This document shows positions 1 through 64,000 of a stretch of DNA of 64,000 bases, piece by piece. The notes under the pieces are model-generated. The model did not search any database, was not told where the DNA came from, and saw only the letters and a program-made list of their open reading frames with translations. The DNA is from Sphaerolaimus hirsutus (taxonomy: Eukaryota; Nematoda; Chromadorea; Monhysterida; Sphaerolaimidae): NCBI GenBank assembly GCA_964036195.1, contig OZ038450.1, forward strand, positions 23,899,208 to 23,963,207, in the 5' to 3' direction. How positions within the stretch are numbered: the first letter of the stretch is position 1; each line of letters opens with the position of its first letter. A program made the position numbers and the translations under genes.

Positions 1-1063
1 AATAAAAATAAAACATGAATGAAATTAAAATTAAATTAAATTTTAAAGAAATTACTACAATTTTAGTAAAAATAATTTTACTCAAACCAATCCTGTTCAC
101 AAATTAAAATTAAAATTAAAATATAATGGAAAATTGAAGAATAAATAAGAATAAAATGAAACATGAAAACAAATAAAAATAACATAATATTTTAATAAAG
201 TTTTTCTACAATTTTAGTAAGAATAATTTTACTCAAAACAACCCTGAGTGTAAACTTGATACATTTAGAGATGTCTGTACATCTTTTGAAAAAGCAGTTT
301 AAAAAAGCAAGGTCATAAAAAGAACCGATTTTTACATCCTTAGTGCCCATGCCATGCCAACTGCTTAAATTATGTCAATTCCACTTCAATTGGTCAACTA
401 TTATATGGTTGACCACCTTAGTTGCTTTAATTACTTTGATTCAATTCAGTTAACTATTCTATGGTTGACCACCTTAGTTGCTTTAATTACTTTGATTCTA
501 TTCAGTTAACTATTACTCATAGTCATAACCATATCTGGGAGCTTTTAAAAACAGTTTTCTGAATACAATTTCAAATTTTCACCTCATGCTGTCAAATTTG
601 CAAATATTTTTCCCCTTCCAAGACATTTTCCTGTTTTTGTGCACTAGTCTGTGACTTGCCGAAATCAACAGTACATCTACTGCGCTTAGCTGTGTGAAAT
701 TTTGCATTTGCAAACACACGTGCACTAGCACCAACTACACACAATAAAACTAGGGCACCCTCTAGCACCCACAAATAGGTACGCAAATACCAACTCTAGA
801 AATAATTGTTTATGGCCTCACAGAAGTCACACAACAGCAGTGTCAACTTATAATGCTATCCCATGGCTCCACAGCCATTATATGACAATAGATAACATCA
901 CAAAATACTGTCACCTGTCTGATATACATGTATATGTTGTCTCATGACCATATTCAGGAGCTTTTAAAAATGTTTTATTTTTTTTAAAATGTTTTATTTA
1001 AAAAAAATATTTTTTTTAAAAACAGGGTCGTCAAAAAACTTTGTTATACTGTACACCAGATAC

Positions 1064-1305
1064 CATTTTTCCTCAAATTACCCCCAAGGAGTTTATGTTT
1101 TCATAGTGGAAGTTCTGAGGGAATTTCAAAGTGGTGTTTATTATTTAGATAAATTTTCATGAACTCCCAGTACTTATTTGTTGTTTGTAACATATGCAGA
1201 CATGAGAAAATGCAACAATAACGGCCACTGGGGGTACTACAAGGCATGGAGGGGATGAATTCTTAGTGGCCATTTTGAAGGGGGGGTATTTCAAGGAAAT
1301 ATGGT
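1064..1305. mobile_element. C-rich TA element, short degenerate copy
   Basis: This runs from ACCATTTTTCCTCAAATTAC to GTATTTCAAGGAAATATGGT. The same copy lies at 3655-3897 in the next macrorepeat unit, so it was inserted before the duplication. Confidence 0.6.
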
Positions 1306-1359
1306 AGTTATTTTGAAAGTTAAAATTGGCAAAAAGGTCACAAAGAAGTGTGTATTGAG

Positions 1360-1667
1360 CAGGGTTAGCAAAATCTCAGATAAAAATAAAATGGAAAATT
1401 GAATACAGAATACAGAATAAGAATACAAAGTAAAATGAAACATTAATAAAATTAAAATAAAATAAAAAAATAAAAAATGCTACAATTTTAGTAAAAATAA
1501 TTTTACTCAAACGAATCCTGTTCACGAACTAAGATAAAAATAAAAATATAATGGCAAATTGAAGAATAAATTAGAATAAAATGAAACAAACAAAAAATAA
1601 TGATAAAATAAAAGTGTAATTTAGTTTTAGTACGATTTTAGTAAGAATAATTTTACTCAAACCAACC
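1360..1667. mobile_element. Dimeric CAGGGTT-type MITE
   Basis: It starts CAGGGTTAGCAAAATCTCAG and ends ACTCAAACCAACCCTG. An internal CGAATCCTG near 1515 divides it into two similar AT-rich halves. The CAGGG...CCCTG termini match the elements at 39009 and 62685, which have 8-bp TSDs. No clear TSD is visible here. Related copies are at 3952, 12540 and 54983. Confidence 0.55.
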
Positions 1668-1984
1668 CTGAGTGTAAACTTGATATATTTATAGATGTCT
1701 GTACATCTTTTGAAAAAGCAGTTTAAAAAAGCAAGGTCATAAAAAGAACCGATTTTTACATCCTTAGTGTCCATGCCATGCCAACGGCTAAAATTATGTC
1801 AATTCCACTTCAATTGGTCAACTATTTTATGGTTGACCACGTTAGTTGCTTTAATTACTTCGATTCGATTCAGTTAACTATTCTATGGTTGACCACCTTA
1901 GTTGCTTTAATTACTTCGATTCTATTCAGTTAGCTATTACGTGGGTGTGGGTGCATGCCACCACAGCACAGGGTCACACCAGGT

Positions 1985-2157
1985 GCCAGTTCCACATGGA
2001 GAAAAAAAATGGCAAATGCAAAGGGAAATTTCTTTTTAGTTTTTTTTTCCTTTTTACTTGCCATTTTTCTTCTCACTTCACTTCTCACTTCTCATTTTAC
2101 TTCGCATTTGCCACCTTTCTTCTCACTTCTCCACTTGCGGAACTGGCAACAGATGAT
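1985..2157. mobile_element. Foldback MITE with GCCAGTTCC ends and TTCTCACTT array
   Basis: The left end GTGCCAGTTCCACATGGAG pairs with the right end CTTGCGGAACTGGCAAC. The interior is an iterated TTCTCACTTC-like word. Another copy is at 13143-13319. The GTTCCGCAAGT termini are shared with 33496-34143 and 34482-35256, which carry quite different internal words. Confidence 0.5.
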
Positions 2158-14030: not shown

Positions 14031-15492
14031 GTTTTACAATTCTGCAGTACCATACCATACTGCAGAAAACAGCGAAATTTCCTGTCCAGTGCTGATCAAC
14101 AGAATTACTGACCTCCCTTGAGTTGCATACTTAAAATACACTTTAAATCGATTTTTTGTTAGACACTTTAAAAGTTGGTTTAGAATGCCCTCTTGGGGAT
14201 AGTTTAAGGTATAAAGTTGTGTAAAAGACCTTACTCCAAAAATGCCCTGCTTAAGAATTTTAATGGGGGTCAATTTGATGATGTCACCTATGACATCATT
14301 GTGGTACAAATCTCTACTGCAATGATGTCATAGGTGATGTCATCGCATTGAACCCCATCAAAATTCTTTAGCAGGGCATTTTTGGGGTAAGGTCTTTTAC
14401 AAAACTTTATACCTTAAACTATCCCCAAGAGGGCATCGTAAACCAACTTTTAAAGTGTCTTACAAAAAACCGATTTTAAGTGTATTTTTGTGTGCAACTC
14501 GAGGAAGGTCAGAAGTTCACAGTGGACCAGAGTTGTGCAAATACTGGTATTTTTGGAAAACGTAAACGTAAACGTAAATACCTTTTCCAAATAAAAAGTA
14601 TAAATACTAAAACGTAAGGTATTTTTAAAATACCAAGGAATACGTAAAAAAAACGTAAACGTAAAAAATTTTACACACCATATTTGCCATTGTGCTTTGG
14701 AATATACCATTTTTTTCACCTTCAGGTGGGTCAATCATTCCTACTGCACCACTTTCTGTAGTAAGTGTGGCTAAATCCAACTAACGCTGGTGATTCTGGG
14801 GGAGTCCCAGACCGTGTAAAATGCCTTGTAAAATGTCAAATGGCATGCAAAGTTTCTAAAGTCTTGCAAAGTGCCCTGGAAGGTGGCAAATCTTTGCCAT
14901 TTTGCTTGGCATTTTACATGACTTTTGACATTTGCATGAAATTTTACATTTTACAGGGCATCCTACAGAGTCTGGGATTGGCACCAGAGCTTGCACTCGC
15001 CCTGCCAGTTTCAAAACATGTACTACTCACAGTGTTGCAAGTGGCGTTGTCGGAATTCATCACAACAAAAATTATAAACGCAACGCTCCAGAAACAAACA
15101 AAAAGGTTTTTGTGTTCAGCTTTTGAACACATTTATGAATATGTAACCCGTATTCCATGTGCAAGCGTGCAGTCACTTTTTGCATACACTACATTTTTGT
15201 ATGTATACATGTTACGTTAATTATGCGGCTGCAGGTGGTGCACCCCATTTGAACATGTGCACATGTGAACGATCACAAGTTTTTTTACGTTTTCCCTAGT
15301 ACCTGGGTATTTTGGTCAGGAAAACGTAACAAAACGTAATGGTATTTTTGGAAAACGTAAACGTAAATGTAAGTATAAATACCCGAATAACCGGGTATTT
15401 CGGGTAAACGTAAATACGTTTTTCCAACTCTGCACTGGACAGGAAATTTCACAGCATTGTACAGTATTGTATGGTACTGTAGGAATGTAAAT
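14031..15492. mobile_element. Palindromic element split by a hAT-like insertion
   Basis: The left end TTTTACAATTCTGCAGTACC pairs with the right end GGTACTGTAGGAATGTAAA. The arms meet near 14310 in a near-perfect inverted repeat (ATGATGTCACCTATGACATC and its inverse). Removing 14528-15432 restores arm symmetry, leaving an element of about 550 bp. Confidence 0.8.
14528..15432. mobile_element. hAT-like CAGAGTTG element, 905-bp subfamily, copy A
   Basis: Ends are CAGAGTTG and CAACTCTG. Flanks CAGTGGAC (14520-14527) and CACTGGAC (15433-15440) match in 7 of 8 bases. The terminal regions are arrays of ACGTAAACGTAAACGTAAA words. It also carries an internal palindrome of TGTAAAATGTCAAA words (about 14803-14985). 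A close copy is at 42830-43744. Confidence 0.85.
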
Positions 15493-17400: not shown

Positions 17401-17925
17401 GGGGCCCAGAAACAAAAACTAGTGATGGGAAAAACGCCAACACCATGATTTTGGCATCAATGCCATGGCACTTTCATCTTCTTTTAAAAAAACATATTTT
17501 AATAACCTGTTTCTTTGAAAAAAAAACAATGTTTTTTTATGAAAAAAACATTGAAATACATATTTTTAAGGAATTTGAGATTTATGTGACTGGTCTGCTG
17601 ATCATTAACAATGGCAAAAAAGATTCGAAAATTTGAAAACGTTTACGTATTTTCGGATTTTTTTGGAATTTTCGAATTTTTATTTCACTCCTAGAAAAAA
17701 CACTTAAAAATCGATTTATTTTTTTTAAAATTTGAAAATTTGAAAATTCAAAAATAGTTTTTGAATTTTTCAGGGAATTCAATGCAACAATACTCTTAAG
17801 TTCAACGTGTGTAATAAATCGACAATTGATACGCAGCGCGTATGAAAAAGGGAAACGCTAAGCGGCGTTTACACTTTCACGTGTGCCGACAAAAATTTTC
17901 TGGCTTTCATGTCATGAAAATTGAA

Positions 17926-18380
17926 TACCGTATTTCCTGGAAATACCCCCGGGGGGTTTATTTTTTCAGAGTGAGAATTTTGAGGGGGGTTAAACGAAAG
18001 GGGGGGTATTTCGAGGGGGGGGGTTATTATTTCGCCAGAAATTTTTTGAAAACCAAGTACTAAATTGTCGCCTGAAACGTACGCGTACGTCAAACTTGCA
18101 ACAAAAATCGCCATTTATAAGACTCTAAAGACTTGTATAAGTGTGTAGACGTAAAATCACTGTTCTCACATAACAGAGTCATCGTTTTAAACGTGTGTTT
18201 TGCATTACCCAGATGACAAACCGCAGCCTTTGTCATTTACGTTCTCTATACACTAAATTTGGGGGGGGGGTATTTCGAGGGGGGGGTTTATAAGTTCATA
18301 GTGTCCATTTTGAGGGGGGGTATTTCGAGGTGGGGGGGGGTATTTTGAGGTGGGGGGGGGTATTTTGAGGAAATACGGTA
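17926..18380. mobile_element. C-rich TA element
   Basis: TACCGTATTTCCTGGAAATA at the left and TTGAGGAAATACGGTA at the right, with TA on each side. Inside is the subfamily mark ACTTGCAACAAAAATCGCCA and G/C-run words GGGTATTTCGAGGGG. Confidence 0.8.
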
Positions 18381-18442
18381 TTTGTTGTGTCTGACATGTG
18401 TTTTTTGGAAGGCATTCAGCCCCAGGGAAAATGATGCCGCAT

Positions 18443-19125
18443 TGTGCCTCACACACTAGTTTTCACCATGACTTCAGTGAAAACTACAGTATGTCCTCGA
18501 AATACCCCCCTCGAAATACCCCCCCTCGAAATACCCCCCTCAAAATGGGCACTATGAATTTGTGGTCCGGGAAATGCATAACAGACGTTAAAAACACTTA
18601 CTGTGTTACGTTAGAACATCGTTTATACCATCTACATCCTTATATAAGGCTGTAAAAACTTATAAATGGTGGTTATTGTTGCATTTTTCACGTTTTTCTC
18701 TCAAAATTTTCACTCTAAAAAAAATAACCCCCCAGGGGGTAATTTGAGGAAATACAGTAGTGATGTAAAAGGCCCTGGCGCTGGCGCCTGGCGCTACTGC
18801 CAAAGCAAAAAGCGCCATGGTGCTTCTGGCACTTGGCGCCATTATGCTCTGGCACCATTGGCGATTGGCGCTAGGGGTCAGAATGCGCCATAGCGCTTGG
18901 TGCCAAAGTTCTGGCGCTTTTCACATCACTAGTGAAAACTGAAAAATTTTCAAATGTGAATTAATCATCACAGTGGAATGATTCAATTTAATTTTAATTA
19001 ATGAAAGTTTAAATTAAAACATTTGAAAACAAAAGCACATTTAGCATACAGTAACCTAAATGTTGCCATGATGTCAGTTCAGTTTTCACCCATGTCACCA
19101 TGAAAACTAGTGTGTGTAGGGCCAA
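18443..19125. mobile_element. CACACACTAGTTTTCACC element with two nested insertions
   Basis: CACACACTAGTTTTCACCAT is inverted at the right end as CACCATGAAAACTAGTGTGT. It contains a C-rich element (18485-18759) and a GGCGCC-type element (18758-18931). A compact 208-bp relative is at 34790-34997. Confidence 0.7.
18758..18931. mobile_element. TAGTGATG element with TGGCGC array
   Basis: Ends are TAGTGATGTAAAAGG and CTTTTCACATCACTA. The interior is saturated with TGGCGCC and GGCGCTTGGCGC-like words. Confidence 0.7.
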
Positions 19126-19491
19126 TGTGCAAACACGCAATGCACTGGTCCCCATAACTGGTCCCCATAACTCCTTCCTTCCACCATTTTTAATGCTTAA
19201 TTATGGTGAAAATAAGATTAAAAAGTGATAAACATTAAAACAGTCCAAATTCTGTGTTTTAAGCTTCGGATTCAATATTCTTCAAAAAAAAAATTGAAAA
19301 GTATTTAAAAAAATTTGAAAAATAGCCAAAAAAATTCGAAAATTGCCAAAAAAGATTCAAAATTCAAAATTCAAAAATTTAATTCAAAATTCGAAAAAAA
19401 ATTTGGAGAAAAATTTGAAAATTTGAAAATTCATTTCAGAAAAAAAACATTAAAATTTAAATACTTTTTTTCCGACAGTTTGCCATAGTTA

Positions 19492-23875: not shown

Positions 23876-24157
23876 AGCGGGGGGGGGGCTAAGCCCCCCC
23901 CCCTAAAATTTTTTCTACAGAGTGACGGAATGGCATTTTGGCACTGGTGCCATTCGTAGGCGCCACGCCATGGCGCCATTGGCGTTGGCGCTGGCACCAA
24001 AACCCACTGTATATGTATGAAAATATACATACATATGCAGCAACATGAACATTGTGATGACATTTTCAGGGATTTGCCTCTACAGAGGGCCTATCCGCTG
24101 AAAATACTTGTGTTGTGGAGAATTGCGCACTTGGGCACAATATTTTTAATGCAAACT
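23876..24157. repeat. Intronic G/C runs and GGCGCC fragment
   Basis: A hairpin-like G11...C12 pair (CTAAGC loop) lies at 23879-23903. A partial GGCGCC/TTGGCGC array with an inverted CACTGGTGCCATT follows at 23930-24000. Confidence 0.5.
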
Positions 24158-33357: not shown

Positions 33358-33495
33358 TACTCAATTGTGTATCGCCGATTTGACCACAGAAATGAACTCT
33401 CCAAACATTTGCGATCAATGTAAAAGTTAAACGAGAAAAATCGATAGAGAAATCACTGGGTTATTGTGGTGCAAATTTTGCATACTCTGGTGCCG

Positions 33496-35256: not shown

Positions 35257-35283
35257 TAGCCCCAGGTCCCAGTCCCCAGAGAA

Positions 35284-36403: not shown

Positions 36404-36426
36404 TTAGTGTGAGTGCAAGTACTTAG

Positions 36427-40574: not shown

Positions 40575-41382
40575 TACCGTATTACCTCGAATTATCCCCC
40601 CCCCTTGAATTAACCCCCCCCCCCTTCGAAATACCCCCTAAATTTCGGCTGAGGAAATAATAAACCCCCCTCGAAATACTCCCCCTAAAATTGAGTGTAA
40701 CGTGAACGTACATGACAAATACCGCAGTTTGTGATCTGTACAATGCAGAACACATGTTAAAACTGATGATTAAGTGACGTTAGATAAGGGTTTTTGTGTA
40801 TATACAGTAATATATGCGGGGCAGGCCTGATACGCACATCTGCCCGATACGCACATTTGCCCGTTTTTTTCACTTGACACTTTTTCAAGTGATTTTCAGA
40901 TATGAGTAAAGTGAAAAAAGTTGCGCAATGACATTAGTGAACTTTTTACCCTTCACTCATATCTGAAAATCACTTGAAAATGTGTCAAGTGAAAAAAACA
41001 GTGAAAAATAGCCACTTTTCACTGTTTTTCACTTGACACATTTTCAAGTGATTTTCAGATATGAGTGAAGTGAAAAAAGTTCACTAATGTCATTGCGCAA
41101 CGTTTTTTCACTTTACTGATATCTGAAAATCACTTAAAAAGTGTCAAGTGAAAAATACGGGCAAATGTGCGTATTGGGCAGATGTGCGTATCAGTGCACC
41201 CCCATATATGCCTATAAACACACATAAATCTATGTGATTGTTCGATTTTTCTACGTCTGCGTATGGGGAATTTCCGATAATTTCTGGCGAAATAATAGAC
41301 CCCCCCTCGAAGAAAACCCCCCCTCGAATTATCCCCCCCCCCCTTAAATTTTGCTGGCGAAATAATAAACCCCCTGGGGGTA
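40575..41382. mobile_element. C-rich TA element with a palindromic insertion
   Basis: It starts TACCGTATTACCTCGAATTA. The right end is cut by another C-rich element at 41381 (GGGGGTACCGTATTACC). The insertion is at 40818-41203. Confidence 0.75.
40818..41203. mobile_element. 386-bp palindrome-of-palindromes, GATACGCACA ends
   Basis: Flanked by a perfect 8-bp duplication ATATATGC (40810-40817, 41204-41211). The empty site is seen at 33078-33095. Ends are GGGGCAGGCCTGATACGCAC and CGTATCAGTGCACCCCC. The whole element is an inverted repeat centred near 41010, and each half is itself a hairpin built of TTTCACTTGACA and GATTTTCAGATATGAG words. Confidence 0.9.
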
Positions 41383-42743: not shown

Positions 42744-44129
42744 GGGCCAGGCTCATTACGCACAGAAACCCGTTACGCACACGCGCCCGTTACGCACAGA
42801 ATCAAAACCCGCCACGCACAGACGCCCGTCAGAGTTGTGCAAATACTGGTATTTTTGGAAAATGTAAACGTAAACGTAAATACCTTTTCCAAATCAAAAG
42901 TATAAATACTAAAACGTAAGGTATTTTTAAAATACCAAGGAATACGTAAAAAGAAACGTAAACGTAAATTTTTTACTTACACACAGTATTTGCCATTGTG
43001 CTTTGGAAAATACCATTATTTTCACCTTTATATGGGTAAATCGCTCCATCTGCACCACTTTCTGTTTTAAGTGTGGCGAAATCCAACTACGCTGGTGATT
43101 CTGGGGGAGTTCCAGACCCTGTAAAATGCCTTGAAAATGTAAAATGACATGCAAAGTGTCTAAAGTCATGCAAAATGCCCTGGAAGGTGGCAAATCTTTG
43201 CCATTTTGCTGAGCATTTTACATAAGTTTTGACATTTGCATGAAATTTTACATTTTACAGGGCATTTTACAGAGTCTGGGATTGGCACCAGAGCTTGCAC
43301 TCGCCCTGCCAGTTTCAAAACGTGTGCTTTGCACAGTTGTTGCAAGTGCGTCTTCAGATCAGAATTCATCACAAAAAAAATTATAATGACAAGGCTACAC
43401 AAACAAACAAAAAGTGTTAAGCATTTGAACACATTTATGAATATCTACCCAGTATTCCATGTGTAAGTGCAAGCGTGCAGTCACTTTTTACGTTTATGTT
43501 AAATATTTACGTTTGTGCAAAAACACAAGAATATTGTTGGCTGCAGGTGGTGCGGCCCATTTGAACATGTGCATGTGTGAATGATCACAAGTTTTTTTAC
43601 GTTTTCCCCAGTACCCGGGTATTTTGGTGAGGAAAACGTAACAAAACATAATGGTATTTTTGGAAAACGTAAATGTAAACGTAAGTATAAATACCCGAAT
43701 AACCGGGTATTTCGGGTAAACGTAAATACGTTTTTCCAACTCTGACGCCCGTTACGCACACAACTGGGCCCTGTCGGACAAGTCGGTTATCTGAGTTCAG
43801 GATTTTCATGTGTGTTGAAGTAGTTGACACCTGAAATTTCATCAACTGTTACAGCTGTTTTCTACATATTTTACATTCGCAATTGCGAAAGTCAAATATG
43901 TAGAAAACAGATGTAACGGTTGGCAAAATTTTGGGTGTCAACTACTGCTATACATAGGGAATAGAATAGAAGAGAATGTGAAAAATCACATAAACTTTGT
44001 AGGCACAGAAACTCGGCACACACATGGCATCAGCTATGTGCGGGCCGAGTTTCTGTGCGCAGCGTATTAACTTCTGTGCGTAACGGGCTTCTGTGCGTGC
44101 CGAGTTTCTGTGCGTACAGCTACAGGCTC
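42744..44129. mobile_element. TTACGCACAGAA-array element split by a hAT-like insertion
   Basis: The left end GGGCCAGGCTCATTACGCAC pairs with the right end GTGCGTACAGCTACAGGCTC. ACCGGAGTA is repeated on both flanks (42735-42743, 44130-44138). Both ends are arrays of (CG)TTACGCACAGAA(A)CCCG units, and the core holds a hairpin around 43877. It is related in design to 40818-41203. Confidence 0.82.
42830..43744. mobile_element. hAT-like CAGAGTTG element, 915-bp copy B
   Basis: Ends are CAGAGTTGTGCAAATAC and TTTTTCCAACTCTG, with a perfect TSD ACGCCCGT (42822-42829, 43745-43752). It is a close copy of 14528-15432. Confidence 0.93.
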
Positions 44130-44756
44130 ACCGGAGTATACCTAGTTTAGGTGATTGACATCTTTTTCAGTTGTGGGGGATATTGGAACATTTGCAGTTT
44201 ATTTACATGGTATAAAACACTGAACGTGAAGCAAAACTTGCAATTTCAGAAAAAAATACAAAGGTAAATGTGTTAAACACAACCTAAATGATATCATTCA
44301 GCAGATTGGGCATATGAATATGAAAAAATATAGTCACTTATCCCAGCACCTTGGCACCATTTCTGGCGCCATCCAAAACAATGGCGCCGGGTGCCAAATT
44401 GGCCGGCCGCCAGATGGCGCCACAGAAAATGGCGCCAAGCGCCAATAGCGCCATTCCATCACTAGTCCCAACTATTCTGCACGCTAGTGTATAGGCTTTT
44501 TCGAGGTATGCAATGAAGAAAGGGGGAACAACTACATGAACTAGTGATTTTTAAGGTGAAAATATGTAATAAAGGTGTAAAAATAACAATGAAAGCAACA
44601 GCATGAAAGCAACATCCCAGACCCTGTAAAATGCCCTGTAGAATATGTCATGTAAAAGACCCTGTAAAGTGTCATGTGTATCAATATTTTATGTTTTTGT
44701 ATCAAAATCTTACATTTGGACATACAATTTCAATACAAAAACATGATATTTGTAGA

Positions 44757-46391
44757 CCGTATTACCTCGAATTAACCCCCCCCCCCCCCCTTGAATAAAC
44801 GCCCCTTGAATTAACCCCCCCCCCCTCAAAATCGGCTGGGGAAATAAAAATCCCCCCTCCATAATGGTGTACATCATGTATGCAATGTATGTACATGATG
44901 TATTTATTACTGCTAATTTGCATCACAGCTACACATGTTACTAGTTTGTAACGATGGCAAACGGTCGAAAAAAAAGTATTTAAATTTTTAAGTGTTTTTT
45001 CTTAAATGAATTTTCGAATTTTCGAATTTTTCTTCAAAATAATTTTCAAATTTCGAATTTAATTTTCGAATTTCGAATTTTCGAATCTTTTTTGGCAATT
45101 TTCGAATTTTTTTGGCTAGTTTTCGAATTTTTTCAAATAATTTTTGAATCTTTTTGGCAAAATATTGAATCTTAAGCTTAAAACACAGAATTTGGACTGT
45201 CTTCATGTTCTGCTCAGTTTTTATAACCTTATTTTTACCATAATTTAGCATTAAAGATGGTGGAAGGAGTTATGCATACCAGTGTGCTGCTTCTTCATTT
45301 AATTAACACATTGGCACATTTTATTCACCAACACAGCGAAGGCAATAAAAAGAACAATTGAAAAATTGGCATCAAATAAAAATTCAGCTTAAAAAAATTG
45401 GTATCAAATACTGTATTTCCTTGAATTAACCCCCCTGCTGGCTGCCCCCCGTGTTTTTTTTCAGAGTGGAAACTTGGGGGGGGGGGGGGTAAACGAGGGT
45501 GGGTATTTCGAGGGGGGGTTATTATTTTGCCAGAAATTTTTCAAAATCCCAGTACTAAATTGTTGTTTGTAAGTAACACAGATGTCAAAAAATGCAACAA
45601 AAACTGCCATTTATAAGACTCTATAGACTAACACACGCACACACCTGTTGTAACACAACACAGTCAGTGTTTTTGGCATGTGTTCTGTGTTTCCAAGATC
45701 ACAAACCACATTCCGTTCTCTACACACCAAATTGGGGAGGGGGGGGGTTTCGAGGGGGGTTTATCAATTCATAGTGTAAATTTTGAGGGGGGTATTTCCA
45801 GGAAATACGGTACAAAAAACGGATGTGTTGATGTCCGCCTCTTCCACCGCAGATGACATTTCAACGTTTTTTTTGTTTCGTTCCGCTTTTTCATACGCGC
45901 CCTGTATCAATTGTCAATTTATATAGCACGTTGAGCTTAGGAGTGCGTTTTGATGCCTTGAATTGACTGAAAAATTCGAAAACTATTTTCGAATTTTTGA
46001 ATTTTCGAATTTTTGAATTTTTTGAAAAATAAATCGATTTTTAAGTGTTTTTTCTAGGGGCGAAATAAAAATCCGAAAATTCCGAAAAAATTCGAAAATT
46101 CGAAAATGTTTTCGAATTTTCGAATCTTTTTTTGCCATCGTTACTAGTTTGTGTAGGTAATATCTATGTATCTACGTTTTTATGTCCAAATAAACACTGT
46201 TTGGACGCATTTATTACCTGTTTTGGGTATGCAAATGCCTAGTTTTTACTACAGTCCTTACGAAAATTTCCGACGAAATAATAAAAACCCCTCGAATAAC
46301 CCCCCCTCGAATAACCCCCCCTCAAATAAACCTCCTCAAATTTTGCTGGCAAAATACTAAACCCACATGGGGGTATTTCGTGGTAATACGG
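44757..46391. mobile_element. C-rich TA element with hAT-like and C-rich insertions
   Basis: It starts CCGTATTACCTCGAATTAAC and ends TTCGTGGTAATACGG. Removing 44949-46143 restores a copy like 56107-56485. Confidence 0.78.
44949..46143. mobile_element. hAT-like TAACGATGGC family, copy 2
   Basis: Ends are TAACGATGGCAAAC and TTTGCCATCGTTA, with a perfect TSD CTAGTTTG (44941-44948, 46144-46151). Arrays of TTTTCGAATTTTCGAA flank a nested C-rich element (45409-45812). Confidence 0.9.
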
Positions 46392-48637: not shown

Positions 48638-50371
48638 CAGAGTTGGAAAAACGTATTTACGTTTACCAAAAATACCTGGTTATTTGGGTATTCATACTTA
48701 CGTTTACGTTTCCGTTTTCAAAAAATACAATTACATTTTGTTACGTTTTCCTGGCCAAAATACCTGGGTACCAGAGAAAACAAAAAAAACGTTATTTGAG
48801 AAAACATTTAATAGCTTATTCTCAGAAATGCACTTTCAAACAATGTGTAAAAGGTCCCAAAGGAATAGACATTAGACAGAATGCTTTCAGTTCACCCTCC
48901 GCAACACTCACCTATGTAAATATGTACACAAAAAATACCATTTAGGTATTGAAAATATTAGAACTGAATTGAGGTGGGTGTTCATTTGTTTGGGGATTGA
49001 GGTGGGCCTGTGTGATCGTTTTGTGAATGCTAATTTGGTGCACGCTGGTTTTACCCATTAATCAAATGTCTTCAAAATAAATTGCATACTGAACTATCAA
49101 TGAATGAGTCTGGTGATGACGACAATAAATGCACAATGCAACAAAACGACATGTCATCACCGTGACATCCCAAAACCAGGTGGTGATGATCACAGCATCA
49201 CTGTCTCATTTTTCATTCCTCCAAAAATTCACTATTTTTCATCCCTCTAGATAAAATAAAAGCAGCTAATGTGGGTGGAGATCATAGGAACAACCGTGAT
49301 GTTGTAAAAACATGGCTTTTTATCTCCTCTCTAGTGATGGAAAAGCGCCAGAAAAAAGGGCGCCAAGCGCCAATGGCGCCATGGCGCCATTCAGAAAGTG
49401 AGCGCCAGGCGCCAAGGGCGCCACAGAAAAAGGGCGCCAAGCGCCAAGGGCGCCATGGCGCCATTCGAAAAGTGGGCGCCAGGCGCCAATGGCGCCACGG
49501 AAAGAGGGCGCCAAGCGCCAATGGCGCCATGGCGCCATTTGAAAGTTAGGGCGCCAGGCGCCAAGGGCGCCAGGGTAAATAAGTACGTACAATACCCTGT
49601 GTGTGCTAGAAGTGTTTTTCCAGCACTGTATTGCACAAATTCACTTCCGTATTCACATGCTTCAGGATGAAATCAACAAAAATCAACAAATCAACAACTA
49701 GCAACAATTTTTGAATAAAATCGTACTTCCACTTGACATTCAGTTCAAACATAATTAAAATTTCCATTCGACATAACAATCTGTTTATTTATGAGTTTGC
49801 AAGTTTGATGGTTCATCATTCTTAGCTTCTGATCGGTCAAACGCTCCGTTGATGAACCGTTGGACAAAAAATTTCAATCCAATGTCACTACTTTGTCCAT
49901 TTTTCTGGTGAATTTCCGTTATCCACTGACGCGCTTTTGTACTTTTTCTCATTTACGAGGCACTCACGTTGAAACCCTGCTGGCGCCATTTTGGCGCCCT
50001 TCTATGGCAGGGCGCCAGGCGCCAAGGGCGCCACGGAGAAAGGGCGCCAAGCGCCAAGGGCGCCATGGCGCCTTTCAGAAAATGGGCGCCAGGCGCCAAG
50101 GGCGCCACAGGAAAAGGGCGCCAAGCGCCAATGGCGCCATGGCGCGGCGCCCTTTGGCGCCCTCAAATGGCGCCAGCGCCATGGCGCCATTCCATCACTA
50201 CTCCTCTCACAGTGGAAGCACTTAATAAAATTTTTACATTTACATTTTATTTTACGTTTTCCGAGGTATTTTAAAAATACCTTACATTTTAGTATTTATA
50301 CTTCTGATTTGGAACAGGTATTTACGTTTACGTTTACGTTTTCCAAAAATATCAGTATTTGTACAACTATG
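48638..50371. mobile_element. hAT-like CAGAGTTG element, copy G (inverse orientation)
   Basis: CAGAGTTGGAAAAACGTATT at the left and GTATTTGTACAACTATG at the right match the right and left ends of copies A and B, inverted. No TSD was found. The interior carries the element 49332-50200. Confidence 0.7.
49332..50200. mobile_element. hAT-like TAGTGATGG/GGCGCC element, 869-bp copy
   Basis: Ends are TAGTGATGGAAAAGCGCC and GCGCCATTCCATCACTA, with a perfect TSD CTCCTCTC (49324-49331, 50201-50208). Both arms of about 240 bp are arrays of GGGCGCC(A)AGGCGCC words. The centre is unique. It provides the empty site for the insertion in 57239-58955. Confidence 0.93.
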
Positions 50372-50499: not shown

Positions 50500-51310
50500 A
50501 AATACAGCTTTTAAAGATTCAAATATTTTTTTTAAGTATTTCAAAAATTCAAAAACTACACAAAAAGTTTTGAAAACTGCCCAAAAAGATTCGAAAACTA
50601 TATCCGAAATTTGAAAAGTAATTTGGGGAAAAATTCAAAAATTTAAAAAGTCATTTAAAAAAAACACTTAAAAATTCAAATACTTGTTTTCGGAGGGTTT
50701 GCAATTGAGGCGTTTGGTTCCAAAACTCGATAAAGACCAAAGTGGAAAAAATGAGTTAGGTGCGGATCTGATACTTACATACTTTTTTCTTCAAAATAAA
50801 AAAAAAATTACGTAAATATCTCATACCGTTCCCGATATACAGATACATCGATTTTTGAAAAAAAATGCAATTATTTATCCGAAACTGGATATCCCTACAC
50901 CAAAATAAGTAAATGTTCACTCGAAACTCGATATATCCAAAAAAAATTCTTCATGTTATTCACTCGAAACTCGATATTTCCACTGAAAAAAACTTTGCAT
51001 CCGAAACTCGTTATAAATTTGAAGGAGACCGGCTGAATCCCCATACAACAATGAAGTTTGCATCCGAAACTCGTTATAAAATTTTGTTAGTAAAATTTGT
51101 TGCCCTAATTACATTCTAATGGGCGAGAACTCGGCCGTAAAGTAAACCCGGCCGTAAAGTAAATCCGGTCGTAAGGCATAGTTGTACAAACGTATTTACG
51201 TTTACTCGATGAATACGTATACGCGAGTGCTGCGTAAATACGTTTACATTTCCTCCCGAAAAAATACCGGTACTCACTCACTCGGGTTTACTTTACGGCC
51301 GGACCATCCC
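50500..51310. repeat. Repeat remnants: TTCGAAAA, GAAACTCGATAT and GGCCGTAAAGTAAA
   Basis: 50500-50720 resembles a decayed TAACGATGGC element. 50885-51090 has five CGAAACTCG(A/T)TATA words. 51132-51302 has GGCCGTAAAGTAAA twice and its inverse TTTACTTTACGGCC, around a fragment with CAGAGTTG-family words (51180-51282). Confidence 0.5.
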
Positions 51311-51591
51311 CGTCTAATGGACCTAACTCTGGCCATATTTGCTGGCCAGAGGATTATAAATATGGAAAATGTAGAGAAATTCGTTGGCTTTTCAAAAAGT
51401 ATTGGGCAAGGGTTTTCACTCAAAGCGTCTCAAGCTCAAAGTACGCAGGCTACTATCAAAGTTTCAAATGCAATTTTCACAAAACTGAAAAACATGAGTT
51501 ACTTACAAAACTGAGTTATCGAGTTACGGAAGCAAACTCCTCCATTGTCAGTTGACTGGCATTTTGCTCAAATTTTTTAAATGAATTTCAG

Positions 51592-51921: not shown

Positions 51922-52759
51922 TAACGATGGCAAAAAAAGATTCGAAAATTCGAAAATATTTTCGAATTTTTGAATTTTTTTATAATTTTCGAATTTTTAT
52001 TCCACCCCTGGAAAAAAACACTTAAAAATCGATTAATTTTTTAAAAAATTCGAAAATTCGAAAATTCAAAAATTCGAAAATAGTTTTCGAATTTTTCAGG
52101 GACTTCAAGGTGACAAAAAGCGATCTTAAGTACAGCGTGCTAAATAAAGCGACAATTTATATGGGGTGGGTCTGAAAAAGTCTCGTGTAACAAAAAAACA
52201 AACATTGAAACGAAAAAAACGTGTAATGAAAAAACATTGAAATGGCATCCGTGAGGACAGCAGCGGACTCCATCTATTTATGATATCTATTTAGGAATGC
52301 AGAGAGCCGCCCAAACAATTAGAACCGCGGCGCTTTACTTCCGCGGATAGAGACTCCGGTCCATCAAAAAAATCGCTCGCGGGTCTTCCGAGGGGAAGTC
52401 ACACAAACATTTTTGGAAGGCATTCTGCCCCAGTGAAAATGGTGCAAACTGGTCCACATAAGTGTTTCTACCATTTATCATGTTTAAGTGATATAAAATT
52501 GTCATGTCATGCTTCACTTACAGTGAAATTAAGGTAAAAAGGGGCTCCAAACATGAAAACAGCCTTCAAGTGTTTTAAGCTTCAAATTCAATCTTTTTCT
52601 GAAAAAATTCGAAAATTGCCAAAAAAGATTCGAAAATTCGAAAATTAAATTCGAAATTCGAAAATAATTTTGAGAAAAAATTCGAAAATTCGAAAATTCA
52701 TTTTCGAAAAAACACTTAAAAATTTAAATACTTTTTTTCTGGGAGGTTTGCCATTGTTA
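51922..52759. mobile_element. hAT-like TAACGATGGC family, copy 3
   Basis: Ends are TAACGATGGCAAAA and TTTGCCATTGTTA, with a perfect TSD CGAACGAC (51914-51921, 52760-52767). TTCGAAAATTCGAAAA arrays lie at both ends. It is the least interrupted member, at 838 bp. Confidence 0.93.
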
Positions 52760-53705: not shown

Positions 53706-54406
53706 GATTCCAGGTATTCTTCCCTCCATGGACATCTTACCTTCAAGAGGTATGATGTCCGCGGGGACATCATATCTCCGCGGTCATCATACCTCCAATA
53801 TATTCGACATATGGAGCTATAATGTCCGCGGTATAAACACTAGTAAAATGCATATATCTGGGACATTATAGCTCCGCGATAAATGACCAGCTTATTTGTG
53901 CACAAACTTGTGAACATGGCGCCAAGGTGCCCTGCCGCTTTTTGAACTTGCGGTGGGGCCGTGATGCCTATGCTTGATGTCAAAAAAGCGGACCAGATGC
54001 GTGTGCCTCACCTGTGTGAACCTCATATTTGGACATGCACATGATTAAAAAATGCGTGTTTCCAAGCTTTAGGCACACACAACTTTTGAATACAGGTGCG
54101 TTCTGTACATGGGTGCGTTTTGTACAAGGGAATTCAAGTTCAATGGCCAGTGTAGTATGTGGGCCAAAATTTACAATTTGAATCCATTGTGAATTGCCAA
54201 ATGCCCCCATGTACAGAACGCATCCATGTACAGAACGCACCCATGTACAGAATGCCCCCATGTACAGAACGCATCCATGTACAGAACGCACCCATGTACA
54301 GAATGCCCCCATGTACAGAACGCATCCATGTACAGAATGCATCCATGTACAGAACGCACACCTTCAGAAGGTAAGATGTCCACGGAGGGAAGGTTTCCGG
54401 GGACCC
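53706..54406. mobile_element. 701-bp TIR element with GGAGGGAAG ends
   Basis: CTTCCCTCCATGGACATCTT at the left is inverted as AAGATGTCCACGGAGGGAAG at the right. Flanks ATTTATAC (53698-53705, 54407-54414) are a perfect 8-bp duplication. It carries a 17-bp array (54201-54360) and inverted copies of the same unit near 54098. Confidence 0.8.
54201..54360. repeat. 17-bp tandem array with a three-unit higher order
   Basis: The unit CCATGTACAGAAYGCNY occurs about nine times. The last bases cycle through CCC, ATC and ACC, giving a 51-bp higher-order period. Frames such as MYRTHPCTE arise from the repeat. Confidence 0.85.
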
Positions 54407-55391: not shown

Positions 55392-56795
55392 TAACGATGG
55401 CAAACCCTCTGAAAAAAGTATTTAAATTTTTAAGTGTTTTTTTTTCTAAAATGACTTTTCAAATTTTTGAATCTTTTCTGAAATGACTTTTTGAATTTCG
55501 TATTTAGTTTTCGAATTTTTTAATTTTTGAATCTTTTTAGGCACTTTGAATTTTTTTGGGTAGTTTTCGAATTTTTCAAAATATTTAATTTTATCAAAAT
55601 TTTAAAAATCAGGGTCAATGTGTACAAATTGGTTGCACAGCAGCCGCATTTCCTCGAAATCCCCCTTGGAAAACCCCCTCAAAATGGCCACAATGAACCG
55701 ATAAACCCCCCTAGAAATAACCCCCTCATTTACCCCCCCCTCATAACTTACACTATGAAAAATTAACCCCCAGGGGGAATTTTGGGGAAATACGGTATAA
55801 AACGGTAGTACGGAAATACGGTATATAGAAGCATATCTGAAATTCGTTTCATGTACTCAAGTACTTTGAAAAAGTATACATAAACACAAGTACAGGTGTG
55901 TTTTTCAGAGGAAGCATAACTGTATTTACTCAGGTACTCAACTATACATATTTTCCCAGTAAACTTAAATACTTATACTCCAGTACAGAGACAATACGTC
56001 TACATTTCCTATCTACGTATACTTTTTGAAGCATGTGAGTACAGTAAACGTATTTTATAGGTCTTTTATACAAACTTTTGAAAGACACAGAAGGGGAAAA
56101 TGAAGATACCGTATTACCTCGAAATACCCCCATGGGGGTTTATTATTTCGCCAGCAAAATTTGAGGGGGGGTTTATTCGAGGGTTTTTTTTTATTATTTC
56201 GTCAGAAATTTTTGTAAGGATCGTAGTAAAAAGTAGACATTTGCATACCCAAAACAGGTAATAAATGTGTCCAAACAGGATATATTTGGACATAAAAACG
56301 TAGACAGCTACAGAAAATAGTCTATGTGTAGCTGCAATGCAAATTAACAGTGATATACATCATGTACATTGCATACATGACGTATTTATTATGTACATGA
56401 CGTAAATCATTCCGAAGGGGGGGGGTGGTATTTCGAGGGGGGGGGTTAATTCAAGGGGGGGGGGGATAATTCGAGGTAATACGGTAATATGTTTAAAATA
56501 TGTTTATCGCGGCCACCATTTCAACGTTTTAACCGCTTTTTCAATGTTTTTTTTAACTGTTCAGACGCAATACAGATCAATTGTTGATTGATTGACCACG
56601 TTAGGCTTGAGAATGTACATTGTGGCCTCGAATTGCCTGAAAAATTTGAAAAGTCTTTTTGAATTTTTGAATTTTCGAATTTTTTTTGAAAAATGTATGT
56701 ATTTTTTCACTGCATGCTCAAAAATTCGAAAATAATTCCAAAAAATTCAAAAATTCGATTTTTTTCGAAATTTCAAATCATTTTTGCCATCGTCA
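55392..56795. mobile_element. hAT-like TAACGATGGC family, copy 4
   Basis: Ends are TAACGATGGCAAACCC and TTTTGCCATCGTCA, with a perfect TSD GGTGAAGC (55384-55391, 56796-56803). Confidence 0.92.
56107..56485. mobile_element. C-rich TA element, uninterrupted reference copy
   Basis: From ACCGTATTACCTCGAAATAC to ATTCGAGGTAATACGGTA with the CATCATGTACATTGCATACA core. It is useful as the empty version of 20731-22599 and 44757-46391. Confidence 0.82.
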
Positions 56796-57238: not shown

Positions 57239-58955
57239 TAGTGATGGAAAAGCGCCAGAAAAAAGGGCGCCAGGCGCCAATGGCGCCATGCGGCCATTGA
57301 GAAAGTGGGCGCCAAGCGCCAAGGGCGCCACAGAAAAAGGGCGCCAAGCGCCCGGCTAAGGGCGCCATGGCGCCATTCGGAAAGTGGGCGCCAGGCGCCA
57401 AGGGCGCCATGGCTCCATTTGAAAAATAGGGCGCCAGGCGCCAAGAGCGCCAGCATGAATAAGTGCATAGAATACCCTGTGTGCGCTAAAAATGTTTCTC
57501 CAGCGCTGTCGTGCAGAGTTGTTAGAATTACTGAACTTTTTTAAAAGTATATGTAAACGTAAAGTATTTATTTTTTACTCACCACAAAGTATCGAAAACG
57601 TAAAATACTTATTTTTTACTCGTACGCACGCGTAAATGTGAGTACAAATTTTTTTCCCATTAAAATGCAAAAGCGAGCACTTTTCTTCATAGAATATGTA
57701 GAACTGGGTACATTTTTGAAATACAACCCTCAAAATGGCCCTACGAATTAAATAATTGACCCCCTGTCAAAAGCCCCCCCCCCCAAATTGAACGTAAATG
57801 GAACGTAAATATTAAAACCTTCAGTTTGTGTTCTGTGAAATGCAGAACACATGTTTAAACAATGACCAAGTCGCGTTAGAACAGAGTATATACTATCTAT
57901 ATTTACATACATATACCTATATGTAAGTCAATAAAAATACTCTTATACATGAATCTAAACATACGTTGTTGCATTTTTCTACCTCAGCGTATGTCACAAA
58001 GAACGAATTAGTGCTGAGAGTTCTGAAAAATTCTGGCGAAGTAAAAAAACCCCTCGAAACACCCGCCCTTGTTCAACTCCCCTCAAAATTTTCACTATAA
58101 AACAATCACTCCCAGGGGTATTTCGAGGAAATATAGTAAATTGCAGCGTAGTCACCTTATAAATATGTGCCAAATTGAATTCACAGAAATACATTTTCTT
58201 TACGCGTATGCCTCAAAATTGTACGCGTACATGTGAGTACGTTACTTTTTTAAAAAGTATATGTAAACGTATTTACCGCGTACTCGCGTACGCGTATTTT
58301 TCGAGTAAACGTACGTACCTTTTAACAACTCTGCTGTCGTGCACACATACACTTATTTATTCACATTCTCCAGGATGTAATCAATGAAAACGAGACTAGC
58401 AACAATTATTTGCATAAAATCATTCTCACACTTGACATTCAACTCGAACACAATAAAAATTGTCATTTGACAAAAACAATGCATTCACTTGAAATGTTTT
58501 CTTGAAGTGACTAAAATGTAATTGTGACGATTTGGATCCACATATTTACGAGTTTGCAACGTTCAACTGTCCACCACTCTCAGCTTCCTATCCATCAGAC
58601 GTGTCTGATGAACTGTTGAACGAAATATTTTCATCCACTCGCATCCTTTCATCCATTTTTATTGAAAATTTCGATTTTTCACAGACACGGTTATTTTATT
58701 TTTTCATTTAAACAACACTCACTGTGAAACCCCGCTGGGGCCATATTGGCGCCATTTTAGGGCACGGCGCCAGGCGCCAAGGGCGCCATGGGAAAAAGGC
58801 GCCAAGCGCCAAGGGCGCCATGGCGCCTTTCGAAATGTGGGCGCCAGGCGCCAAGGGCGCCACAGAGAAAGGGCGCCAAGCGCCAATGGCCCCATGGCGC
58901 GGCGCCCTTTGGCGCCATCAAATGGCGCCAGCGCTATGGCGCCATTCCATCGCTA
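57239..58955. mobile_element. hAT-like TAGTGATGG/GGCGCC element with nested 820-bp hAT-like copy
   Basis: Ends are TAGTGATGGAAAAGCGCC and GCGCCATTCCATCGCTA, with a perfect TSD GTCAGGTC (57231-57238, 58956-58963). Without the insertion 57514-58333 it is about 890 bp and collinear with 49332-50200. Confidence 0.93.
57514..58333. mobile_element. hAT-like CAGAGTTG element, 820-bp copy D
   Basis: It has a perfect TSD CTGTCGTG (57506-57513, 58334-58341). It is the same length as 22643-23462 and, in the long segments I compared, differs at only a couple of bases after inversion. Confidence 0.95.
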
Positions 58956-59371: not shown

Positions 59372-59783
59372 TACCGTATTACCTCGAATTAACCCCCCCC
59401 CCTCGAAATACCCCCCCTAAATTTCGGCTGAGGAAATAATAAACCCCCCCTCGAAATACCCCCCCCTAAAACTGAGTGTAACGTGAACGTACATGACAAA
59501 TACCGCAGTTTGTGTTCTGTACAATGCAGAACACACGTTAAAACTGATGATTAAGTGACGTTAGGGAAGGGTTTTTGTGTATATACAGTTATAGATGCCT
59601 ATAAACACACATACATCTATGTAATTGTTCGATTTTTCTACGTCTGCGTATGGGGAATTTTCGATAATTTCTGGCGAAATAATAGACCCCCCCCTCGAAT
59701 AAACCCCCCCTCGAATTATCCCCCCCTCAAATTTTGCTGGCGAAATAATAAACCCCCTGGGGGTATTTCGAGGTAATACGGTA
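59372..59783. mobile_element. C-rich TA element
   Basis: From TACCGTATTACCTCGAATTA to TTTCGAGGTAATACGGTA. It matches the inner element 32842-33275 and the interrupted copy 40575 closely, and serves as a full-length reference. Confidence 0.85.
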
Positions 59784-61371: not shown

Positions 61372-61431
61372 TTTACTTTCTTATGGTATTCATTCATAGT
61401 GCCCATTTTGAGGGGGGTGTTTCGAGGGGGG

Positions 61432-62206
61432 CACTGCAAAAAAATAAGTTTGTGAAGTGTGTGAAAGCGCACTCTGTGATGGCACTTCAACTCACTTCCA
61501 CACAGTTCATGAAGTTTTCAGTTAAGTGTCTTCCACTCACTTCACCTAGCTTCACAAAGCCTTATATTTCGTGAAGCGCACTTCCCGACGCTGACACTTC
61601 TACACACATCAAACTGATGCCGAGTTCCAGTGGAAGCGTTGTGACACTTGGTGAAGACACTTCAGAAAAAAAGAGATTTTTGAAGGCACTTCACATACAA
61701 TAATCACAGTGAAGACACTTGCAATTGTATTTTACTGCAAAAAATGATTCAAATGCCAAGGATGGATGGATGGGCATGTGTGCCATATAGTTCAATGAGC
61801 CATGTTTAGTCACATTTCACACTGCTTTATTTAGGTACTATTTACCACCTCCCATTATCTTGTCACACATAAAGTTTTTTTCATATGTACCTTATCGTCG
61901 CATCCTCATAATAAAGTTCTGAAGTCAATCAGCATATTAATACTAAAATTACCACACTTTTTTTCATGTGAAGTGCCTTCACTACAGCTCCGACATTGTG
62001 AAGACACATCACAGTGGGACGTCGGAAGAGAAAACTCTTCACCAACATTGTGCAGCTTCGTGAAGCATTTTCCTATGTGAAGTGTCTTCACAACTATTTT
62101 TGTGAAGCGTCGGGAAGCGCGGACCAGCGTCGTGAAGCGTCGGGAAGCAAACCGTGAAGGCACTTCAAGAAGCTTCACGACGCATCACACACCTATTTTT
62201 TGCTGT
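61432..62206. mobile_element. CACTGCAAAAAA/GTGAAGC element, copy 2
   Basis: Ends are CACTGCAAAAAAATAAG and CCTATTTTTTGCTGTG, inserted in a G run of the C-rich element. GTGAAGCGTCGGGAAGC and CACTTCAC words in both orientations fill the arms. Confidence 0.8.
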
Positions 62207-62279
62207 GGGGGGTGGGGTATTTCGAGGAAATACGGTATTTACTTTCACCTTTTATCTAATGTAAATACCTTCCACTCAG

Positions 62280-62391
62280 ATACAATGCAGATGTAATGAC
62301 AACAGGAGTAATCAATGCATATTATCCTGAATTAGTGTCATATGTGAGGCCGTGGTCAGAGGTAGCTCTGGTTGATTCATTTTTTCAACAG
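62280..62391 (+). CDS. Exon 8 of the unrecognised multi-exon gene
   Basis: Acceptor TACCTTCCACTCAG and a very strong donor CAG|GTAAGC. One leading base and 37 open codons, including ADVMTTGVINAYYPELVSYV and ALVDSFFQQ. The other two frames have stops. The entry phase requires a preceding exon with two trailing bases, which exon 7 can supply only through a weak donor. The exit is at a codon boundary, so further exons should lie beyond the window. Confidence 0.78.
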
Positions 62392-62661
62392 GTAAGCAAT
62401 AATTTTGATTGGATGACTGTGTATGTTCAGTGACAATCATTGATTGACACCTGGAAGCATGCATTCGCTTCAATTTTAGGAACCTTCAAATATTTGAGCT
62501 GTAGCACACTTTTTAGAGCAGGCTGGCCACTGATGCATTGTATTTCTGGGGAGGGGGATTAATGACAGTTTCTGAATGGAAAATGTGAAACACTTGCAGC
62601 ATTTGAATTAATAAAATGCAATTGTTTGGGGTAAAGATTGCATTTCATGAAAAAAATTTAA
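62392..62661. other. Intronic stretch, no feature seen
   Basis: Ordinary AT-rich sequence after the donor of exon 8. No element ends were found. Confidence 0.4.
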
Positions 62662-64000
62662 TATACCGTAAATGCTCTAATAAGCAGGGTTGGTTTTATA
62701 AAAATCATTTGTATACAAATTGTATAAAAATTGTATAAAAATGTATTTTATTTTAATTTTATTCTTGTTTCATTTTATTTTATTTTATTCCAAAATAATA
62801 ATAAAATAATAAAATGTACCATTTTACAAAAAATTTACAAAAATTTTACAGAAATTTTACAAAAAATCAGAATCTTGCATGCAAAATCAGAAAAATGTGA
62901 TAGTTAGACCTAAACATGAAAAACGTGTGACAAACTTTTCTATTACTTTGCAAAAGTTGCATGCAGTAGGTATTGTTAGCTAGTTGCAAGTGTTAAGTTA
63001 CAATTATCAATAAGAATGGTTTGCATTTTCAGTAGAAGGATTACTGGAGTGTGCTGGGCGCATTTGTAAAACATCATGCAAAGTGTCAATTGTCATGACA
63101 AATGTAGTAAAGAGTCAATTGGCATCTCAAATGTCAAGCAAAGTATAATTGTCATGACAAATGTCGTGCAGAGTGTAAATTGTGTATCTGAATCTTATGT
63201 TTTGGTATCCAAACCTTATGTTTTGGTATTCAAATCTTATGTTTTTGTATCCAAATGTTCACATAAGATTTGGTTACAAAAACAACAAGATTTGGACACA
63301 AAAGATAAGATTTGGATACAATTTGCTTTACAGTTTCAACTTATTTTTGTCATGACAAATGACACTTAACTTAACATTTTCATGAAAATTGACACTTTCC
63401 ATTCCATTTCATATGACATTTTGACACTACATGGCTTGGGACTGCCCCAGCTCCGCAAATGAACAGGTTGAACTATAAACAACAGAAAAAATTTTTACAA
63501 AAAAATATGGATTTTTATACAATTTTTACAAAAATATGAATTTGTATACAATTTTACGAAAAATTTACAAAAATTCAAATTTTTATACAATTTTTATTTT
63601 TATTTTATTTTATTTTATTCTTCAATTTTCCATTTTATTTTTATTTTATTTTTATTCTTTTCTGAGATTTTGCCAACCCTGCTAATAAGGCGACGGTCGG
63701 TTTATTGTTTTCAGCACATTTTTGGGGGTCGCATTATTGGAGAGGTCGCTTTATTGGAGAGGGTCGTATTGTACTTTTCAAAAACTCAACAACTCAACTT
63801 TTCATTTAACGCATATGAGCATGGCACCGTAAAGCAATAGGTAATCACATCAAAGCCACAAAATTCTCAAAATACTTATTATTCGGGTTCAACGATATCA
63901 ATTAGCGGCATCCGAAGATTGTGACATCGTTTTTCTTTTTTTTAATTTTTATTTGGGGGTCGGATTATTGGAGGGGGTCGGATTATTGGACAGGGTCGCT
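62662..64000. mobile_element. TACCGTAAATGCTC element, left part, split by a hAT-like insertion
   Basis: It starts TACCGTAAATGCTCTAATAA and continues after 63689 with GGCGACGGTCGGTTTATTG. GGTCG(C/G)(A/T)TTATTGGA words recur about five times up to the window edge. The right end is not in view. Confidence 0.65.
62685..63681. mobile_element. hAT-like CAGGGTTGG element, 997-bp copy
   Basis: Ends are CAGGGTTGGTTTTATAAAA and TTTTGCCAACCCTG, with a perfect TSD CTAATAAG (62677-62684, 63682-63689). The interior has the same GTCATGACAAATG and TATCCAAATCTTATG arrays as 39009-40038. Confidence 0.93.

Follow-up and report, generated by a model that had tools for sequence, protein, structure and literature searches.

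Short-word arrays at the ends of nested, probably gene-less cut-and-paste transposons in a 64-kb window of the Sphaerolaimus hirsutus genome

Introduction

Why would many small inverted-repeat elements, crowded into one stretch of a nematode chromosome, each carry a short word of their own repeated just inside their ends? The question is raised by a 64-kb window of Sphaerolaimus hirsutus contig OZ038450.1 (the whole stretch of DNA analyzed here), from which all conclusions below are drawn. An earlier reading of its sequence, hereafter the original prediction, described at least a dozen families with different termini, each with word arrays in both orientations between terminal inverted repeat and core, and proposed one common process acting on all of them. 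We consider it likely that the window holds nested, small, gene-less cut-and-paste transposons, in which the words would be putative subterminal sites for the transposase specific to each family, with catalytic recognition falling to the outermost tip. This account draws on insertion units, tips, target duplications, an excess of words near the ends, and unit-sized indels between copies, all of which are observed. The anatomy of the word arrays is most likely for the greater part of a known kind, namely subterminal repeats that would be bound by transposase, in hAT-like and other DNA transposons that are non-autonomous. More unusual are three TA-flanked families that share 10 to 12 of 12 tip bases and have unrelated insides, and the direct, palindromic GGCGCC arrays.

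Results

Element limits were taken from inverted tips and target duplications, together with a self-comparison of the window, a listing of tandem repeats, and exact word counts. Exact 8-bp target site duplications (TSDs) flank 14 elements, namely A1 to A3, B1 to B4, F1, F2, G1, and O2, in which they represent a trait of hAT transposons, and K, L, and Q; at G2 and O1, 7 of 8 bases are duplicated. Among random position pairs, exact 8/8 duplications occurred 19 times per 200,000. Related empty sites are visible for K, L, and F2, and since insert-free sequence thus exists, the duplication can be read directly in these cases. The ten words of the original prediction all proved to lie in elements bounded by inverted repeats, with positions off by at most 14 bases.

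The A family comprises A1 (24157..25400; tip TAGTGATGG, TSD ATGCAAAC), A2 (49332..50200; TSD CTCCTCTC), and A3 (57239..58955; TSD GTCAGGTC), in agreement with the GGCGCC loci predicted at 24158, 49332, and 57239. The window contains 102 copies of GGCGCC, of which 87 lie within these elements (25, 34, and 28 copies, respectively), and they occupy the outer quarters in 25/25, 30/34, and 28/28 cases. Four elements with TTCGAA words and exact 8-bp duplications start precisely where expected: B1 (17606..19491; TSD CTGATCAT), B2 (44949..46143; tip TAACGATGGC, TSD CTAGTTTG), B3 (51922..52759; TSD CGAACGAC), and B4 (55392..56795; TSD GGTGAAGC). G1 (42830..43744; tip CAGAGTTG, TSD ACGCCCGT) contains AAACGTAA words and has a second copy in G2 (14528..15432), while O2 (62685..63681; tip CAGGGTTGG, TSD CTAATAAG) has a sister in O1 (39009-40038), where the counted GTCATGAC words lie in the core. 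F1 (22643..23462, minus strand; tip CAGAGTTGTTA, TSD CCCTGGTG) lacks a strong word and runs in the direction opposite to F2 (57514..58333, plus strand; TSD CTGTCGTG), whose related empty site is found in A2. F1 and F2 differ at 2 of 820 bases, and this near-identity is a sign of recent movement in this genome.

Tips of hAT elements follow a consensus of the type TAG/CAG..G, and the candidate hAT tips seen here are TAGTGATGG, TAACGATGG, CAGAGTTG, and CAGGGTTGG. The families that combine 8-bp duplications with the tips TARYGATGG, CAGAGTTG, or CAGGGTTGG are hAT-like. A further set of families, C1 to C3 (tip TACCGTATT), has TA as its outer boundary on each side, followed outward by varied bases, and probably works alike, with less support. 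The TA is a candidate target duplication of the Tc1/mariner-like type; no autonomous copy was seen in the window. It includes C2 (46632..47053; tip TACCGTATTTC, TATAACACCCGGG word pairs), C3 (60930..61371; tip TACCGTATTAC, ACCTTATATTAGAGG words), and C1, exemplified by the copy at 59372..59783 (tip TACCGTATTACCTC, CCTCGAATTACCCC words) and present again at 17926-18380, 32842-33275, 45409-45812, 47728-48145, 52835-53283, and 56107-56486.

Nesting is frequent: A3 harbors F2, L harbors G1, and a C1 copy harbors K, while other C1 copies are themselves inserted in B1, B2 (45409-45812), and B4. By eye, a C1 copy also surrounds P1 and a P copy surrounds B4. L (42744..44130; TTACGCACAGAA words, TSD CCGGAGTA) has a related empty site near 40540, and the related flanks there and near 38900 led us to replace earlier limits of 42756-44122 with TSD CAGGCTCA. 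The word-excess, word-position, and end-proximity analyses used the older limits. The predicted starts at 42744, 46632, 60930, and 61432 were correct. Fragments of an additional GGCGCC element were seen at 41860-44466, to either side of L and a C1 copy; the right end of this element lies near 44464.

Long words tend to have few exact copies in the window, with two each for TTATATTAGAGGGTACC and GTAGAGTAAAAAG, three for TTACGCACAGAA, seven for TATAACACC, and two for TGTAAAATGTCAAA (one of them at its predicted locus), and they are therefore degenerate repeats. For CTCGAAATACCCCC, of which about 25 copies had been announced, 23 exact ones were counted (14 plus, 9 minus). The excess of words over chance was assessed for the top 6-, 8-, and 10-mer on either strand in 37 element segments, each compared with 100 dinucleotide shuffles, and at k=8 the segments beat all shuffles in 30 cases. 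The excess is strongest in the A family, in which GCGCCA occurs 28, 42, and 33 times against 1.1 to 1.8 expected, and in H1, J, B3, H2, K, G1, B2, and L. The top 6-mer of B1 is likewise GCGCCA because a short A-type element (~18758-18931) lies within the tested segment.

The words also lie preferentially near the ends. Among the 28 of 37 elements with sufficient length and at least 4 copies of the top 8-mer, the median position of the top word falls in the outer half in 22 (sign test p=0.004, with copies of one family treated as independent), and the words crowd the ends in 18 (Kolmogorov-Smirnov p<0.05, uncorrected). The other ten are B1 and M, where nested elements disturb the pattern, F1, F2, K, P1, O1, N, C1 at 32842, and C2 at 36427; in K the enriched word is located in the core. 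A, B, G, H1, H2, K, L, and C3 each have a word common to both ends. A second hAT trait, subterminal repeats on either side of the element, is present in A1 to A3, B2 to B4, G1, and G2 and, to judge by the top word, absent from F1, F2, and O1. The placement of words between terminal inverted repeat and core thus holds for A, B2 to B4, G, H, L, J, and part of C, and fails for F, O1, and P1 (61432..62207; tip CACTGCAAAAAA), in which GTGAAG words run throughout the element and flanks within a G run leave the TSD ambiguous.

The orientation of the words differs among families. The left and right arrays of the A elements align better directly than inverted (scores of 108/37 in A1, 232/52 in A2, and 149/37 in A3), and after masking of GGCGCC this preference is kept in A2 (86/22) and A3 (51/19) and gone in A1 (21/22). 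GGCGCC is palindromic, and its directional half-word GCGCCA was counted 94 times on the plus and 36 times on the minus strand over six arrays, with a plus majority in each. Plus words are found at both ends of C3, except for one in the left tip, and near both ends of the C1 copies at 59372 and 32842, except in the right tip; G words are mainly plus at both ends. H1, H2, and K have words inverted between the ends, L nearly so (one plus word inside), and in B, C2, and P1 the orientation is mixed or palindromic. Both orientations are therefore not the rule, A, G, and C3 having mainly one at both ends, and with such differences among families no single copying geometry explains all of them.

This bears on foldback-type copying, whereby one arm would be templated on the other during transposition or repair and the words spread to both ends. 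Long inverted arms, as such copying would leave, are present in H1 (33487..34152; TTAAGAGTTAAAAGTT words, 174 columns at 82%), H2 (34473..35265; AGAGTAAAAAGT words, 122 columns at 90%), and K (40818..41203), which is self-inverted over 444 columns at 90%; in H1 and H2 they contain internal tandem repeats. Foldback elements of the FB/Galileo type have TSDs of 7-9 bp, and K, a foldback-like candidate with two GATACGCACATCTGCCC-type words per end, has an exact 8-bp TSD (ATATATGC) and related empty sites in C1 copies; no TSD was found at H1 or H2. As a common process, foldback-type copying is contradicted for A2, A3, and C3, since GGCGCC arrays that are direct and not inverted between the element ends argue against it, and since the C3 words, those of the tip excepted, point the same way at either end. 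The H1 arms moreover differ in unit length, with a 19-bp unit repeated 3.9 times on the left and a 50-bp unit repeated 4.2 times (96% alike) on the right. We regard this explanation as highly improbable.

An inverted repeat of 1,445 bp at 20886-22330, with halves that pair at 89%, was also seen; an 8-bp duplication was looked for and none was found at this locus.

Differences in array length between copies of one family, a check that the original prediction had suggested, were seen for some pairs. All three C1 pairs compared show a length difference of 14-18 bp, their substitution levels being 3.2 to 9.7%, and the left arrays of A2 and A3 differ by 32 bp, as a single gap that local alignment divides otherwise. 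Indels of 6-10 bp were found in 3 of 6 B comparisons, one of which (TTTCGAA) is plainly a word. F1/F2 (0.2% diverged), four pairs of G ends (1.4 to 11.8%), the right ends of A2/A3 (7.7%), and one C2 pair show no indel of at least 6 bp, and array change therefore does not accompany every transposition. Higher-order tandem copies are found in H1 (as above), A2 (74 bp, 3.1 copies, 89%), and J (51 bp, 3.0 copies, 98%). The latter element (53733..54378) has an inverted tip (CATCTTACCTTC) and, on one side, an array of 17/51-bp CCATGTACAGAACGCA units; its 7/8 duplication TCCATGGA/TCCACGGA was not counted as a TSD because it is close to a palindrome and belongs to a longer inverted repeat. The unit-sized indels in A (one pair) and C1 and the unequal units of the H1 arms fit slippage or unequal exchange, acting locally, stepwise, and at each end separately.

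Tips were found to be shared more widely than words. Rather than having different termini, the families of the ten words can be sorted by tip into five groups: TARYGATGG (A and B), TACCGTATT (C1 to C3), GGGCC (L), CACTGCAAA (P), and CTGGKGCCRRTYCC (H1, H2, and I). Many small families are indeed present, and their breadth had been overstated because they share tips. In the first 12 bp of the tips (including TA for the C families), C1 and C3 agree at 12/12 bases, C1 and C2 as well as C2 and C3 at 10/12, H1 and H2 at 10, and A and B as well as F and G at 9, compared with 4, 4, and 6 in three between-group comparisons; K-L, K-Q, and L-Q were left out, as the starts of L and Q were wrong there. The insides were compared over bases 15-160 of one end, with one copy per family, against 200 shuffles. 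Shuffles scored as well in 163/200 (C1-C2), 200/200 (C1-C3), 129/200 (C2-C3), and 79/200 (A-B) cases, so that these insides are no more similar than shuffled sequence, and in 1/200 (F-G) and 0 (H1-H2 and a control pair of C1 copies) cases, where they are related. The C group tip pattern TACCGTATTWCYYC has 36 matches in the window with at most 1 mismatch, against 0.11 expected.

The shared-tip group of H and I is weaker than the others. Its pattern, built after the sequences had been viewed, has 15 matches with at most 2 mismatches against 2.04 expected, the 4 exact ones being ends of H1 or I, and four others fall outside the named H and I elements, at 1980-2152 and 13143-13316. In the inside comparison 191, 62, 19, and 3 of 200 shuffles did as well, and of the two I-I pairs used as controls one was likewise not told apart (36/200), so this comparison has little power. 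The inverted tip of I (37853..38319; CAGTCCC[GA]GACC, read as CAGTCCCGGACC and CAGTCCCAGACC) is real, and a short A-type element is nested within it. The array predicted at 37848 has thus been borne out as to the tip and less so as to the words, with just 4 TGTAAA counted in 298 bp.

A clade of elements with units near 17 bp and, by eye, a shared CCC tail (K, L, Q, S, J', R, and C3) was considered and is not claimed. Q (51123..51312; TSD TCTAATGG) consists of GCCGTAAAGTAAACCCG-type 17-bp units, and S (~17206-17325) and J' (~54096-54363) have a best duplication of 7/8, with none at R (~57010-57110). In circular comparison of the units, just K-L and L-R (12/17, reached by 0.5% of shuffled pairs) and Q-R (11/17, 2.1%) stood out in 21 pairs, and hence there is no single clade.

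Several further features of the window were recorded. At 30059-32293 lie broken open reading frames (ORFs) of a reverse-transcriptase-type element, which we take to be Penelope-like, and a GIY-YIG domain is encoded by one of them; they accord with a eukaryotic look of the window. The neighboring reverse-transcriptase-like ORF retrieved 7 distant relatives in a protein search, 2 of which carry a reverse-transcriptase or GIY-YIG domain. A minisatellite of about 57 copies of a 20-bp unit (CCAGTCCCAGTCCCAACCAC) occupies 35290-36403 and adjoins H2. Positions 1-1704 are repeated at 2595-4281 (95% identity) as part of a larger repeat with 56-bp internal units, and further pieces lie at 12529-13397 and 15955-16873. 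Neither the B-end pattern nor the C1 tip pattern had a match in the viral contigs searched, and the C1 pattern had none in genome contigs; a match of TAGTGATGGAAAAGCGCC to one IMG/VR contig was taken as chance because of its context.

Discussion

The words are probably bound by the DNA-binding domain of each family's own transposase, with the outermost tip serving as the putative catalytic recognition sequence. A multiplicity of sites might favor synapsis or specificity, a role suggested for Galileo, and the arrays would grow by slippage or unequal exchange and be kept by selection on mobility. Selection for arrays of putative transposase sites fits the data and the hAT, Galileo, and CACTA precedents. 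Of the mechanisms offered in the original prediction as one common process, this selection fits and slippage fits the A and C1 indels, and foldback replication is unsupported.

Several observations weigh against such an account. No transposase, such as one with the BED and RNase H-like domains of an autonomous hAT partner, was found among the 23 ORFs scanned with Pfam, out of a set of 80 ORFs of at least 90 aa from which those starting at 35200-36450 had been left out, and GIY-YIG was the sole domain found. No clear TSD was found for the short A-type elements or for H1, H2, I, J, and P1, and the superfamily call does not extend to C, H, I, K, L, P, and Q. Nor do the copies within a family count as independent cases. 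Top words are not nearer the ends in K, O1, P1, F2, B1, and M, the last two being disturbed by nesting. The claim that words exceed chance also stands in part: seven of the 37 segments failed at k=8 (F1, P2, I, and the C1 copies at 42042, 1061, 3654, and 4744), and 7 of 19 control stretches (800 bp each, not length-matched to the elements, one of them, at 23500, with GGCGCC words) likewise beat every shuffle.

These controls with over-represented words are what would be expected if short words by the tips merely expand through replication slippage or unequal exchange, functionless and like simple repeats elsewhere in the window. Array lengths do shift by units, tandem repeats are common outside the elements, and higher-order copies have built up in H1, J, and A2. 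Effect size, however, separates elements from controls better than does beating all shuffles. A score above 10 at k=8 was reached by 14 of 37 elements (including M, whose word comes from the nested G2) and by none of the 19 controls, for which the top score was 8.9; at the other word lengths top control scores were 10.5 (k=6, a control with GGCGCC words) and 9.8. Neutral slippage also sits poorly with word medians near the ends in 22 of 28 elements, and with a common word at both ends although arrays change separately, as the unequal H1 units indicate. We therefore find this explanation unlikely, if less so than foldback copying, and favor putative transposase sites kept by selection.

A more tentative idea, which we hold possible and somewhat doubtful, is that the ends are of two parts, a conserved catalytic tip and an exchangeable array into which an unrelated word could be swapped wholesale (C1 to C3; A and B; possibly H and I), giving a recognition code that would separate co-resident families. 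If so, the split between tip and word known from CACTA elements would extend to TA-flanked and hAT-like elements, and one genome would supply a ready-made series of transposons alike in tip and unlike in putative binding word. It would then become testable how transposase specificity shifts, why subterminal sites multiply, and how gene-less elements come under one transposase and not another. For annotation, such elements would be clustered at two levels, with the tip defining the larger group and the word the family.

Subterminal repeats have been described as a feature that defines hAT elements, with 17 and 18 copies in Tgf2 (PMC4890040). Hermes, whose BED domains act cooperatively in binding a quasi-palindromic pair, has 17 and 14 motif copies, mostly in one direction per end and mostly opposite between ends (PMC10368747), while Herves has a different motif of its own (PMC3143072). 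As far as these accounts go, the 8-bp TSD, the short tip, the many family-specific words near both ends, and the quasi-palindromic pairs are like those of the hAT elements Hermes, Tgf2, and Herves. Unlike in the latter, no transposase was seen in the window, and the A words are palindromes in 74-bp higher-order arrays; they also keep one main direction at both ends, unlike the Hermes words as described.

For CACTA elements (En/Spm), the pages cited describe words that diverge within species with tips kept, and repeated subterminal words in direct and inverted order (PMC2613891), the latter resembling the arrays found here. Literature searches for word arrays in miniature or TA-flanked elements listed four papers at most, and this does not prove that such accounts are lacking. 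The tips in the window are not CACTA, P1 starting with CACTG, and the flanks are 8-bp TSDs or TA.

Sea-urchin TU elements have 8-bp TSDs and short tandem units in their arms, a likeness by description and not by sequence. Galileo tandem repeats hold extra THAP-domain sites (PMC3688188), and in Tetris, for which unequal crossing-over has been proposed, the units vary in number and have sequence in common with the tip domain (PMC4079207), at least in the portions referred to here. Long arms with internal tandem repeats are thus a point of likeness to Galileo, Tetris, and other foldback-like elements as these portions describe them, whereas the A and C3 arrays are not inverted as in Galileo and Tetris, and the units here are mostly 6-50 bp compared with the ~220 bp given for Tetris.

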